Below are positions 20,953-27,417 of a DNA stretch of 64,000 bases, one piece after another. The DNA lies in assembly GCF_002072155.1 (NCBI RefSeq), contig NZ_BDIY01000007.1:62001-126000 (forward strand), read 5' to 3'. Source of the stretch: Roseovarius sp. A-2. GTDB lineage: Bacteria; Pseudomonadota; Alphaproteobacteria; Rhodobacterales; Rhodobacteraceae. The position numbers and the translations under genes were made by a program. Within the stretch, counting starts at the first letter, position 1. Each line of letters starts with the position of its first letter. The notes under the pieces were generated by a model, which was not told the origin of the DNA, did no database searches, and was given only the letters and a program-made list of their open reading frames with translations.

Positions 20953-21001
20953 GCGGATTGCCGCTGGTCAAGCGCTGGCGCGCGCTGATAGATTGGTGCC
21001 C

Positions 21002-22762
21002 ATGTTTCTCCGCGCCTCACGGACCCTGCTTGTCGCCCCGTTCCTGCTGGTCACTGCCCTGGTGACCGGCGCGGTCTGGCAGTATGGCTACGGCCAGGCG
21101 CTCGACAGGCTGGCGCGCCGGGGCACGGCGGATATGTCGCTGGTGCTGGGCGGGCTGGTCTCGGATCTGCAACGCTACCGCGATCAGGCTGTGGCGCTGG
21201 CCGGGCATCCGACGCTGACCGTGCTGACCGGCGCGCGCGCGCCGCATCAGGAGGCGGCGGCGAACCGGCTGCTGATCGCCTCGGCAGACCGCACCGGGGC
21301 GACCGGGCTATATTTCGTGGACGACCGGGGCGATTTGCTGGCGGGCACCCGAGGCACTCCACCGCCAAACCTCACCCGCTCCGGGGCCTTTGCCCGGGCG
21401 ATGGACGGCGCGCTCGGCACGACCCACTCCATGCAGCGCTCGGGCTCGGCACGGCTGTTTCAATTCGCCGCCCCCTCCTTTGGTGCGGATGGCAAGGTCA
21501 ACGGCGCGCTGATCGCCGTGGCCAATGCCGAGAATGTGGAATTCGGATGGCGCGGATTGCAGACGGCGGTGTTCCTGGTCGACGAGGCGGGCCGTGTCTT
21601 CATGTCCAACCGCTCCGAGCTTCTGGGCTGGGGCAAGCTACCGGGTGAGGCGCAGCTGGTGCCGCCAGACGGCGCGCCGATCCGGTTCACGCAGACCCGC
21701 AGCGGCCCGCATGAAATCTGGCAGATCGACCTTGGCCCCTATCTGCCGCGCCGCGCGTTGCAGGTCAGCCAGGCACTGCCGCGTATTGGCATGACCGGCG
21801 CGGCACTGGTCGATGTGGCCCCGGCGCGACGCATCGCGATGCTGCAGGCGGGGGCCGTGGGCGGGCTGCTTCTGTTCTTCGGCGCGCTGCTGCTTTTTGC
21901 GCAGGAACGGCGCCGCACGCTGGCGCGCGCCAATGCCGAACTGGAACGCCGCGTGGCCGACCGCACGACCAGCCTGACCGAAACCAACCGCGCCCTGCGC
22001 CGCGAGATCCATGAGCGCGAGGAGGCCGAGGCCGCGCTGCGCCGCGCTCAGGCCGAACTGGTGCAGGCCGGCAAGCTCAGCGCGCTTGGCAAGATGAGCG
22101 CGGGCATCAGCCACGAGCTCAACCAGCCCTTGATGGCGATCCGGCAATTCGCGGCGAATGGCGGCGCGTTCCTGCAACGCGGAACGCCTGACAAGGCCGC
22201 CGAAAACCTTGCCCGCATCGACGAGATGGCCCACCGGATGAGCCGCATCATCCGCAACCTGCGTGCCTTTGTGCGCAACGAGAATGAGCCGGTGACCTGT
22301 GTCGACATCGTGCAGGTTGTGCAGGCCGCGCTCGAGATGACCGCCGAACGGCTGGCCAAGGATGGCATCGAGGTCGATTGGCAGCCCCCGGCCCGGCCCG
22401 TTCCCGTGCGCGGCGGCGAGGTGCGGCTCGGGCAGGTCGTGCTCAACCTCATCACCAATGCCGCCGACGCCATGGCCCAAAGCGCCGAGCGACGGTTGTC
22501 GATCAGCCTCACCGACGGCGCGCCGGTCACGCTGCGCCTGTCGGATACCGGGCCTGGCATCGAGGAGCCGGAGAAAATCTTCGACCCGTTCTATTCCACC
22601 AAGCTGATCGGTGCGGGTGACGGGATGGGGCTGGGCCTGTCGATCTCCTACGGCCTGGTCCAGAGCTTCGGCGGCAAGATCACCGGGGCCAATACTGGCC
22701 ATGGCGCGGAATTCACTGTCGAGCTGGAGCCCTGGACAGAGCAACAGAAAGGGGCGGCATGA
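21002..22762 (+). CDS. dctB: DctB-like sensor histidine kinase, 586 aa
   Basis: Topology is that of DctB: a helix at about residues 5-25, a periplasmic dCache-type sensor (about 30-275), and a second helix (about 280-302). A coiled coil follows (ERRVADRTTSLTETNRALRR). The kinase core has HisKA LGKMSAGISHELNQPL (phospho-His), N-box NLITNAADAM, G1 DTGPGIE and G2 GMGLGLSISYGLV. In rhizobia DctB senses C4-dicarboxylates with the transporter. Here it is followed by a regulator (ATGA overlap) and a TRAP transporter, so it likely controls dctPQM. The ATG at 21002 is used; a TTG nine bases earlier is possible. Confidence 0.88.
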   Translation: MFLRASRTLLVAPFLLVTALVTGAVWQYGYGQALDRLARRGTADMSLVLGGLVSDLQRYRDQAVALAGHPTLTVLTGARAPHQEAAANRLLIASADRTGATGLYFVDDRGDLLAGTRGTPPPNLTRSGAFARAMDGALGTTHSMQRSGSARLFQFAAPSFGADGKVNGALIAVANAENVEFGWRGLQTAVFLVDEAGRVFMSNRSELLGWGKLPGEAQLVPPDGAPIRFTQTRSGPHEIWQIDLGPYLPRRALQVSQALPRIGMTGAALVDVAPARRIAMLQAGAVGGLLLFFGALLLFAQERRRTLARANAELERRVADRTTSLTETNRALRREIHEREEAEAALRRAQAELVQAGKLSALGKMSAGISHELNQPLMAIRQFAANGGAFLQRGTPDKAAENLARIDEMAHRMSRIIRNLRAFVRNENEPVTCVDIVQVVQAALEMTAERLAKDGIEVDWQPPARPVPVRGGEVRLGQVVLNLITNAADAMAQSAERRLSISLTDGAPVTLRLSDTGPGIEEPEKIFDPFYSTKLIGAGDGMGLGLSISYGLVQSFGGKITGANTGHGAEFTVELEPWTEQQKGAA

Positions 22763-23988
22763 ACGGTGAGGTTCTTGTCGTCGATGACGACCGCCCGGTG
22801 CGCGAGGCGCTGACGCAAACGCTGGAGCTGGCAGATTACACCGTGCGCGCGGCGGGATCCTTCATCGAGGCCAAGGACCATATCACACCCGATTTTCCCG
22901 GCGTGATCCTGTCGGATATCCGCATGCCGGGGCGCGACGGGTTCCACCTGCTATCGCATACCCGCGCCCTGGACGACGAACTGCCGGTGATCCTTCTGAC
23001 TGGCGAGGGCGACGTGCCGATGGCGGTCAAGGCCATGGGCGACGGCGCCTTCGACTTCCTGGAAAAGCCTTGCGCGCCGGATCAGTTGATCCCGGTGCTT
23101 GAACGCGCATTAAAAAACCGTCGTTTGGTGCTGGAGAACCGCCGCCTGAAGGCGCAGTTGGAAATCGGCGATCCGGCGGCGCGCATGCTCTTTGGCACCT
23201 CGCAACTGGCCGAGGATATGCGCCAGACCGTTCGGCAGGCGGCGCGCGCGGGCACCGAGGTGCTGGTCACCGGCCCGCCCGGCGCGGGTGTGTCCAAGGT
23301 GGCCGAGGTCATCCACCTGATGTCGAAGGGCGCGGGCGGCCCCTTTGTCAAGCGCGCGGCGGCGGGGCTCGACCCGGACGCGCTCGATACCGCCTATGAA
23401 CAGGCGGCGGGCGGCAATCTCTTTCTCGACGAGATCCCCGCCCTGCCCACGGCCAGCCAATACGCGCTCCTCGAACGGCTCGACCCCGGCGGTGACGCGC
23501 GGCTCATTGCGGGCAGCACCGCCGATCTGGCACAGGCAGCCGCCGAGGGCCGCTTCAACGCCGATCTCTACTACCGGCTGGAGGTGCTGCGCGTGCGCAT
23601 CCCCGCGCTGTCGGAACGGCCCGAGGATATCCCCGTGCTGTTTCGCCACTACGTCGCGCAGGCCGCCGAACAGGCCGGCCTCGCCGCGCCCGAAATAAAC
23701 CCCGATCACCTCGCAGCCCTCATGGCGCAGGACTGGCCGGGCAACGCGCGCTCGCTCATGTCGGCCGCGATGCGCTTCGTCCTCGGCATGCCCGACACTG
23801 CGGCGGAAGCGGCGGAATTGGGGCTCGCGGAACAGATGGCGCGAGTCGAGCGTTCGCTGCTGATCGCGGCTTTGGGGCGGCAGAACGGACGCGCGGCGCA
23901 GGCGGCACAGGCGCTCAAACTGCCGCGCAAGACCTTCTACGACAAGCTGGCGCGATACGGGATTCGCCCCGAGGACTATCGCCGCTGA
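22759..23988 (+). CDS. dctD: DctD-like response regulator with degenerate AAA+ domain, 409 aa
   Basis: A receiver domain (residues 1-120) has VVDDD at the N-terminus, the phospho-Asp in ILSDIRMPGRDGF, Thr in LLTGEGD and Lys in LEKPC. The AAA+ region (about 140-365) is degenerate. The P-loop reads GPPGAGVS, lacking the Walker A lysine, and the block that should carry GAFTGA is absent between FVKRAAAGLDPDAL and GGNLFLDEI. Those elements are needed to hydrolyse ATP and contact sigma-54. Arg-finger-like FNADLYYRL and a Fis-type HTH (RAAQAAQALKLPRKTFYDKL) remain. It probably controls dctP without sigma-54. Confidence 0.88.
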   Translation: MNGEVLVVDDDRPVREALTQTLELADYTVRAAGSFIEAKDHITPDFPGVILSDIRMPGRDGFHLLSHTRALDDELPVILLTGEGDVPMAVKAMGDGAFDFLEKPCAPDQLIPVLERALKNRRLVLENRRLKAQLEIGDPAARMLFGTSQLAEDMRQTVRQAARAGTEVLVTGPPGAGVSKVAEVIHLMSKGAGGPFVKRAAAGLDPDALDTAYEQAAGGNLFLDEIPALPTASQYALLERLDPGGDARLIAGSTADLAQAAAEGRFNADLYYRLEVLRVRIPALSERPEDIPVLFRHYVAQAAEQAGLAAPEINPDHLAALMAQDWPGNARSLMSAAMRFVLGMPDTAAEAAELGLAEQMARVERSLLIAALGRQNGRAAQAAQALKLPRKTFYDKLARYGIRPEDYRR

Positions 23989-24001: not shown

Positions 24002-24051
24002 TGTGCGGAAATCCGCACAAGCACCACATCACCCGTGCGGATTACCGCACA
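24002..24051 (+). promoter_or_regulatory. tandem 18-bp inverted repeats, probable DctD operators
   Basis: Site 1 (24002-24019) is TGTGCGGAAATCCGCACA, a perfect palindrome around AA. Site 2 (24034-24051) is CGTGCGGATTACCGCACA, sharing both arms. Their centres are 32 bp apart, about three helical turns, so two dimers would bind on the same face of the DNA. They lie just after the dctD stop and about 195-245 bp upstream of the dctP start. I saw no convincing -24/-12 sigma-54 promoter between them and dctP. Confidence 0.75.
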
Positions 24052-24244
24052 AGCCATGCCACAGGTGCAAGGCCGACATGTCATATCCGCTCGGCAAACC
24101 TCTGATAAACGGTCAGAAATCGGGCAGAGCGCCCAGAAATATCGCAGGATCTTGAGCAGCACGTGTGATTCTCTCACGATATCGGCACCGCGCCCGGAAC
24201 CGGGCGTTTCGGAACAGACTGTAATCCATGGGAGGAGATCCAAG

Positions 24245-25246
24245 ATGAAATTCATGACCGCTGCCGTATCGGCACTGGCCCTTACCGCCTTTGCAGGCAC
24301 CGCGATGGCCGCCTGTGACGACGGCGAGATCGTCGTCAAGTTCAGCCACGTCACCAACACTGACAAGCATCCCAAGGGCATCGCCGCCTCGCTGCTGGAA
24401 TCCCGCGTCAACGAGGAAATGAACGGCACCATGTGCATGGAGGTCTATCCGAACTCCACGCTCTACAACGATGACAAGGTGCTCGAGTCGATGCTGCAGG
24501 GCGACGTGCAGCTCGCCGCACCCAGCCTCTCGAAATTCGAGAAATTCACCAAGCAGTTCCGCCTTTTCGACCTGCCGTTCCTGTTCTCGGACGTGCATGC
24601 CGTCGACCGCTTTCAAGCGTCCGAAACCGGTCAGGCGATGCTCGACTCGATGCAACGCCGCGGCCTTCAGGGTCTGGCATACTGGCACAACGGCATGAAG
24701 CAGATGTCGGCGAACGTGCCGCTGCTGGAGCCGTCGGATGCCAACGGCCTCAAGTTCCGCGTTCAATCCTCGGACGTGCTCGTGGCGCAGATGGAGGCGA
24801 TCGGCGGCAGCCCGCAAAAGATGGCCTTTTCCGAGGTCTACGGCGCGCTGCAACAAGGCGTTGTGGACGGGCAGGAAAACACCTGGTCCAATATCTACGG
24901 CAAGAAGTTCTTCGAGGTGCAGGACGGCATCACCGAGACCAATCACGGCATCATCGACTACCTGCTGGTGACCAGCGTCGATTGGCTGGACAGCCTGGAC
25001 GCCGATGTACGTGACCAGTTCCTGACCATCGTGGGTGAGGTGACCGAGACCCGCAATGCCGAGTCGTCCAAGGTCAACCAAGATGCCAAGCAAGCGGTGA
25101 TCGACGCCGGTGGCGAGGTGCGGCAACTTTCGGCCGAGCAGCGCGAAAAGTGGGTCGAGACGATGAAGCCCGTCTGGGAGCAGTTCGAGGGCGATGTCGG
25201 TGCCGAGAATATCGACGCCGCCGTGGCCTCGAACAGCAGTTCGTAA
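24245..25246 (+). CDS. dctP: TRAP transporter substrate-binding protein DctP, 333 aa
   Basis: Periplasmic binding component of a sodium- or proton-driven TRAP transporter. The Sec signal runs to about residue 22 (FAGTAMA then ACDDGE). VKFSHVTNTDKHPKGIAA, a DKVLESMLQGDVQLA block and KFRVQSSDVLVAQMEAIGG carry the binding-site Arg region. PQKMAFSEVYGALQQGVVDG and QENTWSNIY are the classic DctP signatures, and all fit C4-dicarboxylate (malate, succinate, fumarate) binders. The start follows GGGAGGAGATCCAAG. It is the first gene of dctPQM, preceded by the inverted repeats and dctBD. Confidence 0.93.
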   Translation: MKFMTAAVSALALTAFAGTAMAACDDGEIVVKFSHVTNTDKHPKGIAASLLESRVNEEMNGTMCMEVYPNSTLYNDDKVLESMLQGDVQLAAPSLSKFEKFTKQFRLFDLPFLFSDVHAVDRFQASETGQAMLDSMQRRGLQGLAYWHNGMKQMSANVPLLEPSDANGLKFRVQSSDVLVAQMEAIGGSPQKMAFSEVYGALQQGVVDGQENTWSNIYGKKFFEVQDGITETNHGIIDYLLVTSVDWLDSLDADVRDQFLTIVGEVTETRNAESSKVNQDAKQAVIDAGGEVRQLSAEQREKWVETMKPVWEQFEGDVGAENIDAAVASNSSS

Positions 25247-25264: not shown

Positions 25265-25322
25265 GCCCCGTATAATCGGGGCATGGGTATCAGTATCGGG
25301 CGGGCCCCCGTGGCCCGCCCGA
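25265..25322 (+). terminator. two hairpins between dctP and dctQ (attenuator or mRNA stabiliser)
   Basis: Hairpin 1 (25265-25282) is GCCCCG-TATAAT-CGGGGC. Hairpin 2 (25296-25322) has an 11-bp perfect stem with loop CCCGT. There is no T-run, so full termination is unlikely. The pair probably protects the dctP mRNA end or reduces read-through, giving more binding protein than permease. Confidence 0.6.
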
Positions 25323-25360
25323 CCTGCAACAGACTTCTGCAAGATCAGGGGACCGGGACG

Positions 25361-26041
25361 ATGCAGCACAGGACAGGGCTAATCGACCAGATCGAGGAGA
25401 CGGTGATCGCCGTGCTGCTCGGGCTGATGACACTCACCACCTTCGCCAATGTGGTGGCGCGCTACATTTTCAATTCGAACATCCTCTGGGCACTCGAACT
25501 GACGGTGTTCATGTTCGGATGGCTGGTGCTGCTGGGTGCCTCCTACGCAGTCAAGAAACACGCGCATCTCGGCGTGGACGCGATCCTCAACATGGTGTCG
25601 CAACCGGCGCGTCGCGTGCTTGCGCTCATCTCGGTCGCGGCCTGCCTGATGTTTTCGCTGCTGCTGCTCAAGGGCTGTTACGATTACTGGGCGGTCTTCG
25701 CCGACCTGCCCCCCACATCGGGGCGCTGGTTTCCGACGGGCTTCGACATGAGCGCCCGCAGCCAGAGCTTCTACGAGGTGCAGGACGTGCCGATGGTCGG
25801 TGTCTTCCGCTTTCTGGAGGACATGATCAACTACGGCGAAACCTACGAGAAACTGCCCAAGGTCGTGCCCTATATCGTGCTGCCGATCTCGGCGCTCCTG
25901 CTGGTGCTGCGATTTTCACAGGTCGCGGTCGCAATCTGGCGCGGCGACGTGGATCGTCTGGTTGCCAGCCACGAGGTCGAGGACGAGCTTGACGAGATCC
26001 GCGCCGAACATGCGCGCGACGCGAACGGGGGATCGAACTGA
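25361..26041 (+). CDS. dctQ: TRAP transporter small permease DctQ, 226 aa
   Basis: Four transmembrane helices: about residues 12-35 (VIAVLLGLMTLTTFANVVARY), 48-68, 85-110 and 170-195. RYIFNSNILWALELTVFMFGWL and GASYAVKKHAHLGVDAI are the conserved DctQ motifs. A soluble stretch between helices 3 and 4 (about 55 residues) makes it longer than minimal DctQ proteins, as in C4-dicarboxylate systems. The ATG at 25361 follows AGGGGACCGGGACG. Its stop overlaps the dctM start by one nucleotide (TGATG). Confidence 0.92.
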   Translation: MQHRTGLIDQIEETVIAVLLGLMTLTTFANVVARYIFNSNILWALELTVFMFGWLVLLGASYAVKKHAHLGVDAILNMVSQPARRVLALISVAACLMFSLLLLKGCYDYWAVFADLPPTSGRWFPTGFDMSARSQSFYEVQDVPMVGVFRFLEDMINYGETYEKLPKVVPYIVLPISALLLVLRFSQVAVAIWRGDVDRLVASHEVEDELDEIRAEHARDANGGSN

Positions 26042-27417
26042 TGGATGTCGTCCTTCTCTTCTCGATGGTGATCGGCCTTCTGCTGATCGGTGTGCCGATT
26101 GCCATCTCGCTCGGGCTCAGCTCGACCCTCTTCCTGCTGATCTATTCCGAAAGCTCGCTGGCCTCGGTCGCAGGCACCCTGCTCGAGGCCTTTGTCGGCC
26201 ACTACACCCTGCTCGCGATCCCGTTCTTCATTCTCGCCTCGGCCTTCATGACGACGGGCGGCGTGGCGCAGCGGATCATCCGCTTCTCCATCGCCTGCGT
26301 CGGGCACCTGCCGGGCGGGCTCGCCATCGCGGGCGTGTTTGCCTGCATGCTCTTCGCCGCGCTGTCCGGCTCTTCACCGGCGACCGTTGTGGCCATCGGC
26401 ACGATCGTCATCGCAGGGATGCGGCAGGTCGGCTATACCAAGGAATTCGCGGCTGGCGTGATTTGTAACGCTGGCACGCTCGGCATCCTGATCCCGCCCT
26501 CCATCGTCATGGTGGTCTATGCCGCCTCGGTCGATGTGTCGGTGGGTCGGATGTTCCTTGCGGGCGTCATTCCCGGCCTTCTGGCGGGCCTGATGCTGAT
26601 GACGACGATCTATGTCATCGCGCGGGTGCGCAACCTGCCGAAAGGCGACTGGCAAGGCTGGGGCGAGATCTGGGCCTCGGGGCGCGAGGCGGGCTGGGGC
26701 CTCTTTCTGATCGTCATCATCCTCGGCGGCATCTATGGCGGCATCTTCACGCCCACAGAGGCGGCGGCGGTTGCGGCGGTCTATTCCTTCTTTATCGCCT
26801 GCTTCATCTACCGTGACATGGGGCCGCTTGCCACCTCCGGCGAGGGCCGGAATACCAGCCTCAGCCGCAAGCCCTGGGCTGTTGTCACCGCCTTCGTGCA
26901 CCCTGACACCAAGAAGACGCTGTTCGACGCCGGGCGGCTCACGGTCACGCTTTTGTTCGTGATCGCCAACGCCCTCATCCTCAAGCACGTGCTGACCGAC
27001 GAGCAGATCCCGCAATCCATCGCCAATGCCATGCTGTCGGCGGGCTTCGGCCCGGTCATGTTCCTGATCGTGGTCAACGTGATCCTGCTCATCGGCGGGC
27101 AGTTCATGGAGCCGTCGGGCCTTCTGGTGATCGTGGCACCGCTGGTCTTTCCCATCGCCATCGAACTGGGGATCGACCCCATTCACCTTGGCATCATCAT
27201 GGTAGTGAATATGGAAATCGGGATGATCACGCCGCCGGTAGGGCTCAACCTCTTTGTCACCTCGGGCGTTGCGGGCATGCCGATGATGTCGGTCGTTCGC
27301 GCCGCCCTGCCCTTCCTCGCGGTGCTCTTCGTGTTCCTGATCATGGTCACCTATATTCCGTGGATCTCGACCTTTCTGCCCAACACATTCATGGGGCCGG
27401 AGATCATCACCAACTGA
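26041..27417 (+). CDS. dctM: TRAP transporter large permease DctM, 458 aa
   Basis: The transport channel of the TRAP system, with about 12 hydrophobic segments. Signatures include MTTGGVAQRIIRFS, SGSSPATVVAIGTI, AGVICNAGTLGILIPPSI and GIYGGIFTPTEAAAVAAVYS. The late block GMITPPVGLNLFV is invariant in DctM. The 458-aa length includes a cytoplasmic insertion around residues 265-290 (SGEGRNTSLSRKPWAVVT), common in C4-dicarboxylate members. It ends the dctPQM operon at a terminator. Confidence 0.94.
   Translation: MDVVLLFSMVIGLLLIGVPIAISLGLSSTLFLLIYSESSLASVAGTLLEAFVGHYTLLAIPFFILASAFMTTGGVAQRIIRFSIACVGHLPGGLAIAGVFACMLFAALSGSSPATVVAIGTIVIAGMRQVGYTKEFAAGVICNAGTLGILIPPSIVMVVYAASVDVSVGRMFLAGVIPGLLAGLMLMTTIYVIARVRNLPKGDWQGWGEIWASGREAGWGLFLIVIILGGIYGGIFTPTEAAAVAAVYSFFIACFIYRDMGPLATSGEGRNTSLSRKPWAVVTAFVHPDTKKTLFDAGRLTVTLLFVIANALILKHVLTDEQIPQSIANAMLSAGFGPVMFLIVVNVILLIGGQFMEPSGLLVIVAPLVFPIAIELGIDPIHLGIIMVVNMEIGMITPPVGLNLFVTSGVAGMPMMSVVRAALPFLAVLFVFLIMVTYIPWISTFLPNTFMGPEIITN

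Follow-up and report, generated by a model that had tools for sequence, protein, structure and literature searches.

A DctD-type regulator in Roseovarius that appears to have been uncoupled from sigma-54 while keeping its paired operators

We analyzed a 64,000-nucleotide stretch of the genome of Roseovarius sp. A-2 ("the window"), which encodes a DctD-type response regulator of 409 amino acids beside the genes for a C4-dicarboxylate tripartite ATP-independent periplasmic (TRAP) transporter. From comparisons of sequences, we think it likely that this protein, a DctD by descent, by neighborhood, and by its target sites, has been uncoupled from sigma-54 and serves as a phosphorylation-switched activator of the housekeeping RNA polymerase, with no ATPase activity. 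As expected for a DctD, the gene is linked to genes for a DctB-type kinase and for a C4-dicarboxylate transporter (from open reading frames and Pfam), and the protein has a DctD-type receiver with its phospho-acceptor pocket. The Pfam domains are Response_reg (residues 5-112), Sigma54_activ_2 (145-284), AAA_lid_14 (286-354), and HTH_8 (360-400).

NtrC-type activators engage sigma-54 with two loops, L1 (which includes the GAFTGA motif) and L2. Alignments to NtrC1 and to an intact relative (L142, 45% identity; L numbers are our labels for loci) show that about 31-32 residues are missing from the window's DctD, with 19 lost at L1 and 12-13 at L2. The original prediction, which was made from the window's sequence alone, had given 30-40 missing residues; the amount was about right, but the two gaps rule out a single deletion of that size. 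It had also stated that the Walker A lysine and the GAFTGA segment were lost, and this is correct. Valine (V178) replaces the lysine, no lysine is found in the P-loop core of any of 81 sequences, and none of the 81 contains the string GA[FY][TS]G. In other words, the GAFTGA loop and the Walker A lysine that a sigma-54-dependent bacterial enhancer-binding protein (bEBP) should have are missing from the entire set. The receiver and the Fis-type helix-turn-helix (HTH) are retained, as predicted, according to both Pfam and alignment, and sensor II is retained as well. The arginine-finger region was predicted to be intact and is only partly so: the second arginine (R273) is present, and the first arginine of RxDLYYR is replaced (N267). 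With both sigma-54 loops, the Walker A lysine, and one of the finger arginines lost, ATP-driven remodeling is not expected. The protein has an NtrC-type domain order without GAFTGA, as do relatives of bEBPs that act with sigma-70, such as HupR or NtrC of Rhodobacter capsulatus.

The 81 sequences are the window's DctD and the best 80 of 433 contig matches (the "named" orthologs), so the set is biased towards close relatives. The 80 are all from Rhodobacteraceae, and the nearest is from Roseovarius tolerans (93% identity). Aligning homologs from this family had been proposed as a check, and the losses of the lysine and of GAFTGA turn out to be common to all 81 sequences, so they are not due to a local sequence error. 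At the position of the lysine we found isoleucine (53 sequences), valine (26), leucine (1), or phenylalanine (1). None of the sequences has the first finger arginine; the second position is arginine in 74 sequences and lysine in 7. The L1 segment has the same length as the window's in 81/81 sequences, and the L2 segment does in 80/81. The same P-loop is found in 29 further loci (L107-L135) from a sample of the family's genomes. These loci are related by descent, so the counts are not independent events. One ortholog from the family sample (G058:C3:908073-909296) carries an in-frame TAA within the match.

Given the loss of key catalytic residues, one could ask if the gene is a decaying, functionless pseudogene. 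We consider this to have almost no chance of being correct. Frames of at least 409 codons are open in 81/81 loci, which rules out a pseudogene or a frameshift, and the operators (see below) have been kept alongside. Also, conservation of the domains is high: across 43 aligned orthologs, the mean share of the majority residue is 0.83 in the receiver, 0.73 in the AAA+ domain, 0.87 in the lid, and 0.90 in the HTH.

By its sequence, the AAA+ domain looks like a dead ATPase, yet in the predicted structure its fold looks preserved. The AlphaFold model of the protein (mean pLDDT 88, pTM 0.58) has a normal AAA+ fold, at 1.7-2.5 Å over ~205-211 residues from the corresponding domains of FlrC, FleQ, and PspF. 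Its best whole-chain structural matches are NtrX and NtrC-type regulators, with NtrX structures on top. It is possible, but rather unlikely, that the modified P-loop (GxxGxG[IV]SK) still binds a nucleotide and that binding, instead of hydrolysis, acts as a switch. Such a mechanism would fit our proposal and differ from it only in the ATP step. The three glycines of the P-loop are kept in 43/43 aligned orthologs, Lys180 in 41, and the D and E of Walker B in 91% and 95%, and what reportedly matters for NtrC of R. capsulatus is that ATP is bound, not that it is hydrolyzed (PMC10274813). On the other hand, all 81 sequences have I, V, L, or F in place of the lysine, and nucleotide binding is normally abolished when this residue is hydrophobic.

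The gap between dctD and dctP contains two palindromic matches to the pattern TGTGCGG-N4-CCGCACA, TGTGCGGAAATCCGCACA and CGTGCGGATTACCGCACA, about three helical turns apart, which we identify as site-like sequences. Of these, TGTGCGGAAATCCGCACA is identical to the sequence that PMC11077940 gives as bound by DctD in R. meliloti. Allowing one mismatch, the pattern occurs at just 2 places in the genome, both of them in this gap. Within the window, there are 4 matches when two mismatches are allowed, and 0.6 were expected. We examined 110 loci with degenerate DctDs (the window, the 80 named loci, and the 29 further family-sample loci), of which 86 are distinct and have dctP at 60-700 nt; the other 24 have no dctP in that range or duplicate another gap. 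The tandem pair is present in 86/86 of these loci, with a spacing of 32 bp (65 loci), 33 bp (20), or 31 bp (1). The background rate is 0.04 single sites per 600 nt. The pair is missing from within 600 nt in 10 of the 80 named loci; in 9 of the 10 it lies farther off, before a more distant dctP, so that the pair precedes dctP in 79/80. In the tenth (L025), neither the pair nor dctP was found within 3.5 kb. The nine loci with a distant pair (L028, L031, L041, L056, L068, L071, L072, L075, and L079) have ~0.6-2 kb of extra sequence between dctD and the operators; the pair stayed with dctP.

To describe the promoter, we anchored 89 distinct loci on operator 2. At offsets of 57-61, 74/89 loci have a match to the consensus for integration host factor (IHF) at 7 or more of 9 positions (median of other offsets, 3); in the window, the match is TATCAGAGGTTTG. 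A TTGA, the core of a putative -35 element, lies at offsets of 114-118 in 69/89 loci (median of other offsets, 1), and TTGA followed by 17 bp and NANNNT is present in 44/89 (median elsewhere, 0). The second and sixth positions of the -10 element (A2 and T6) matter most for sigma-70. Among the 70 loci with TTGA thereabouts, T6 is found in 96% and A2 in 63%. Sigma-54-like elements are at chance level (10/86 loci, with 10.4 expected), and none of the 10 is the window's locus. A transcription start near 24187, as we infer, would place the operator centers near -145 and -177, with the IHF match near -86.

We propose that DctB senses C4-dicarboxylates and phosphorylates D53, as the intact pocket would allow. 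The regulator would then occupy the two tandem operators, ~145 and ~177 bp upstream of the likely start of dctPQM transcription, and IHF, given its site-like sequence, would bend the intervening DNA. The promoter, whose -35 element is good and whose -10 element is poor, would be weak on its own, and the regulator would activate the housekeeping RNA polymerase there. The AAA+ fold would be left as a scaffold, probably for oligomerization. In evolutionary terms, the core promoter would have switched from -24/-12 to -35/-10, with the operator pair and its 32-bp spacing retained.

Genetic data from Ruegeria pomeroyi suggest that the control of dctPQM is positive. SPO2630 is a regulatory gene whose number adjoins those of dctMQP. 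Its mutants fail to grow on fumarate, as do dctM and dctP mutants (PMC10130141), and SPO2630 has been termed a C4-dicarboxylate TRAP regulatory protein (PMC10041152). We did consider if the regulator might repress dctPQM or block another activator. Activation from far upstream of a sigma-70 promoter is uncommon, which would fit that view. Also, Caulobacter NtrC, which lacks GAFTGA, is reported to be both an activator and a repressor at sigma-70 promoters (PMC12421884, PMC10274813). But the -35 element is not covered by the operators, which are ~100 bp farther upstream; the -10 element is poor, as in activated promoters; and the phenotype on fumarate implies positive control, if SPO2630 acts through DctD. 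We view either alternative as improbable.

We did not find rpoN in the Roseovarius sp. A-2 genome (a 99.98% complete draft in 126 contigs): there was no match to either Sigma54_DBD or Sigma54_CBD, so the sigma factor that a sigma-54-dependent bEBP would need was not detected. As a control, each model matches 4 of 14 control genomes, including those of E. coli, B. subtilis, and Caulobacter. Across relatives, we searched 79 genomes that have a named degenerate ortholog and found a clear rpoN in 11 (8/49 and 3/30; the genome of L068 was left out). Many of the genomes searched are metagenome-assembled genomes or drafts without a stated completeness, so absence of rpoN from them is weaker evidence. 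In a family sample of 394 genomes, which was drawn from a larger group and in which locations are given for the best matches only, rpoN is present in 37/166 genomes with the ortholog as against 90/228 without it (odds ratio 0.44). Here the cutoff for orthologs (E < 1e-129) was our own choice, and we dropped 13 rpoN matches with E from 1e-4 to 1e-3; 127 genomes with rpoN were used, versus 129 over the search cutoff. This modest association rules out a strict tie between the degenerate DctD and absence of rpoN, and since rpoN is present in some genomes with the ortholog, the degenerate form does not depend on its present absence. The rpoN of an R. pomeroyi strain (L190, from genome G035) has IS66-like transposase genes next to it, a sign that it may be an acquired copy. 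One rpoN from R. mucosus is near a flagellin-like gene.

These data also bear on the idea that the regulator still serves sigma-54, either through a sigma-54 that was missed in the assembly or indirectly. The genome is a draft, rpoN does occur in those 11/79 and 37/166 genomes, and mutants of Caulobacter NtrC were affected in sigma-54 genes even though this NtrC lacks GAFTGA (PMC12421884). Furthermore, 4 of the 11 named loci with rpoN have a sigma-54-like element (9/12 match) before dctP, as compared to 0.12 expected per locus. But three of the four matches are upstream of operator 2, and the fourth (L020, downstream) lacks the GC of the -12 element. All 11 of these loci keep the operator pair and have TTGA at 115-118, both contact loops are gone, and the two models did not find rpoN in the protein's own genome. 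Continued service to sigma-54 seems highly improbable. Overall, the prediction that this is a DNA-binding regulator that works with the housekeeping sigma factor gains support from the lack of a detected rpoN, the conserved sigma-70-type promoter, the chance-level frequency of sigma-54-like elements, and the stepwise losses described below.

The family also includes DctDs that are linked to dctP and retain both GAFTGA and the GK of Walker A (L142 and L186 from one genus and L143 from another). All three have rpoN in the genome and have the operator pair, with a spacing of 32 bp and 24-25 of 28 positions matching. L142 and L186 have a -24/-12-like element (TGGCACGCATCTTGAA, 10/12) at offsets of 115 and 113 from operator 2, and L143 has one (TGGCATGGATTCTGCA, 9/12) at 69. 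In other words, the distance from operator 2 to the start of the element is 113-115 bp in one genus and 69 bp in the other, compared to 114-118 bp for the -35 element of the degenerate loci. In Sinorhizobium medicae, a 12/12 element lies ~75 bp from TGTGCGGATTTCCGCACA, upstream of dct regulator genes; the record carries no annotation, and we take the element to be the dctA promoter.

We built trees from 52 and 42 selected rows, with L164/L165 as our chosen outgroup. When the columns for the P-loop, L1, L2, and the finger are removed, the intact members of the family fall outside, followed by proteins that have lost the loop and kept the lysine: L138 branches at a node with support of 99/97, and L136 and L139 branch at 97/92. 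The L140 group has support of 95/90, and the clade without the lysine has 100/97. The branching order did not change when all columns were used. Because of how L138, L136, and L139 branch, these sequences indicate a stepwise loss, with the sigma-54 loop lost before the lysine. The genomes of L138 and L139 have rpoN, and that of L136 has no rpoN match; apparently the loop was lost while rpoN was still present. The loop-less L136 has TTGA at 116. In the sister group of the clade without the lysine (L140, L141, L144, L145, and L160), Walker B is lost and GK is kept in 4/5, and we saw no dctP or DctD operator pair alongside these genes.

Other DctD-like proteins lie outside this clade. L148-L163 and most of L171-L184 form a separate group from Rhodobacteraceae, mostly with GAFPGA or GAFAGA and an intact Walker A, in genomes with and without rpoN. 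Proline is reported to be favored at this position of GAFTGA in deviating EBPs (PMC3162934). DctD-like proteins from Paracoccus denitrificans (L167) and Rhizobium tropici (L170) have lost GAFTGA and kept the lysine, apparently independently.

Several observations weigh against our proposal. First, the link between SPO2630 and this locus is our inference, and the cited passages do not state if SPO2630 is the kinase or the regulator. Second, a reversed control pattern has 4 matches in the genome, so the 2 operator matches are not an excess; what is unusual is that both fall in this single gap. Third, 20/89 anchored loci lack TTGA at 114-118, and a generic scan for sigma-70 promoters calls none over its threshold at the window's locus. 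The scan is empty because the -10 element is weak, so it is conservation that supports our promoter call. The promoter might also be used by RpoH or another factor of the sigma-70 type. Fourth, IHF-like matches are also enriched, more weakly, on the other (plus) strand (29/89 at 104-108; median, 2), which our proposal does not explain. In the window this falls near 24138-24142, just before the -35 element. Fifth, the intact relatives do not give a perfect starting point. Their elements are imperfect, with TTGA in place of TTGC at -12 in L142 and L186. An intact DctD from another family of the class (L173), which is linked to dctP in a genome with rpoN, has an 11/12 element and no such operators. 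Among the intermediates, a sigma-54-like element and the fixed TTGA are both absent from the loop-less L138 and L139, and the operator pair of L138 is poor (20/28). L147, which lacks the lysine, also has no fixed TTGA.

Could the other NtrC-type proteins of Roseovarius sp. A-2 have gone the same way? From 15 rows of activator-domain matches, we counted nine such proteins and read the rest as second pieces or as Clp- or MoxR-like. Eight of the nine lack GAFTGA and eight have the Walker A lysine; only the window's DctD has lost both. Because seven further members (L002-L007 and L010, all with the Walker A lysine) lack GAFTGA, the set as a whole seems to have been weaned from sigma-54. These include an NtrC-like copy (L007) and NtrX (L003, 742 bits). 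L001 (C6:52941-53438; also labeled L189) has an intact Walker A and GAFSGA despite no detectable rpoN. It adjoins [NiFe]-hydrogenase-like genes and looks like a HupR/HoxA-type regulator.

A broader scenario is plausible, and we offer it tentatively. The regulator may be an enhancer-binding protein without its motor that keeps the old geometry: it would work via an IHF bend from ~145-177 bp upstream on a sigma-70 promoter, without ATP hydrolysis, and with the core promoter exchanged in place. It would have left sigma-54 before rpoN was lost, and a regulator-first weaning of the whole set of bEBPs would have let many roseobacters drop sigma-54.

Control by sigma-54 is usually seen as all or nothing, with no promoter opening without an ATPase activator. 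Here, a single circuit can be read in stages among living relatives: intact regulators with -24/-12-like elements, loop-less regulators, and regulators that lack the loop and the lysine and have -35/-10 promoters. This illustrates the rewiring of an entire control circuit, with parts of the motor lost and the target sites in the DNA kept. It also opens three questions to testing: by what route a lineage abandons sigma-54, which of the parts is the first to go, and whether activation from a distance can persist without ATP. As dctMPQ of R. pomeroyi is suggested to be its sole importer of fumarate (PMC10130141), the phenotype should be easy to score. This kind of protein is not new: TyrR, DhaR, and HupR are known members of the class that use sigma-70 and lack GAFTGA (PMC3162934). 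As far as our literature searches tell, there is no description of a DctD of this kind, of the combined loss, or of a core promoter being exchanged beneath a conserved operator pair. Searches for the trait in roseobacters and for GAFTGA-less relatives, whose coverage leaves out most subscription journals, gave no title or abstract that describes it.

The features of the locus are listed below. The 5' end of dctD overlaps the last codons of the upstream gene for the DctB-type kinase (from the list of open reading frames), and dctP, dctQ, and dctM follow dctD in that order (from open reading frames and Pfam).

Table. Features of the dct locus, with positions in the window
Feature	Position	Strand	Basis
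dctB-type sensor histidine kinase (dCache_1-like, HisKA, HATPase_c)	20993..22762	+	Open reading frame; Pfam, with dCache_1 under its cutoff
dctD-type response regulator lacking the Walker A Lys and both loops for sigma-54 contact	22759..23988	+	Open reading frame, 409 amino acids
Receiver domain, residues 5-112	22771..23094	+	Pfam; D10, D53, T81, K103 invariant in 48/48 aligned proteins
P-loop relic GPPGAGVSK, residues 172-180, Walker A Lys to Val (V178)	23272..23298	+	Sequence, alignment
Gap site of the 19-residue L1 (GAFTGA) loop, between residues 212 and 213	23389..23400	+	Alignment
Walker B NLFLDEI, kept	23416..23436	+	Alignment
Gap site of ~12-13 residues, L2 / pre-sensor-I loop, near residues 238-239	23467..23478	+	Alignment
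R-finger segment RFNADLYYRL, first Arg gone (N267), second present (R273)	23551..23580	+	Alignment
Fis-type HTH, residues 360-400	23836..23958	+	Pfam
DctD operator 1 (predicted), TGTGCGGAAATCCGCACA	24002..24019	+	Equals published R. meliloti site
DctD operator 2 (predicted), CGTGCGGATTACCGCACA	24034..24051	+	32 bp downstream of operator 1
IHF-consensus match TATCAGAGGTTTG	24095..24107	-	9/9 defined positions
Putative -35 element TTGAGC	24152..24157	+	Conservation
Putative weak -10 element CACGAT, 17-bp spacer	24175..24180	+	Conservation
dctP, C4-dicarboxylate TRAP binding protein	24245..25246	+	Pfam DctP, 1.8e-100; start codon examined
dctQ	25283..26041	+	Pfam DctQ
dctM	26041..27417	+	Pfam DctM

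Among known systems, the best full-length match in NCBIfam is PgtA (NF047793; 286 bits over residues 4-408, for a profile of length 414), which is well below its cutoff of 650. PgtA acts in phosphoglycerate transport. A search of PMC3844500 for Salmonella PgtA gave no result. The match to NtrX (NF051870) scores 244 bits, under the cutoff of 600; NtrX shares the NtrC-type fold and has another regulon. The same is true of TyrR and VpsR, which are listed as defective in GAFTGA (PMC3162934).

Descent is better captured by DctD of Sinorhizobium and Rhizobium, which is a group I bEBP and depends on sigma-54. The receiver and linker are 49% identical and superimpose at 1.8 Å over 139 residues (1qkk), and both systems have a kinase partner, a neighboring C4-dicarboxylate transporter, and paired operator sequences, of which one here equals the published sequence. 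In contrast, the window's protein lacks the Walker A lysine, GAFTGA, the L2 loop, and a sigma-54 promoter, and no rpoN was found in the genome.

For how the protein works, the original prediction named NtrC of R. capsulatus as the analog. The L1/GAFTGA deletion of NtrC from R. capsulatus and Caulobacter, which are reported to act at sigma-70 promoters (PMC10274813), fits. But ATP is said to matter for these proteins, through its binding in R. capsulatus and through both binding and hydrolysis in Caulobacter (PMC10274813), and the R. capsulatus subtype keeps Walker A for ATP binding, while the window's DctD has lost the lysine. By promoter layout, HupR of R. capsulatus, which we group with HoxA-like regulators, is nearer. 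At hupSL, the activator site for HupR is near -150 and IHF binds near -87. This layout matches that of the window's dctP promoter. HupR is an NtrC-type regulator that is described as sigma-70 dependent and has a defective GAFTGA (PMC3162934). It differs in that it controls hydrogenase and acts when unphosphorylated. In our best reading of this analysis, the regulator is probably most like HupR.

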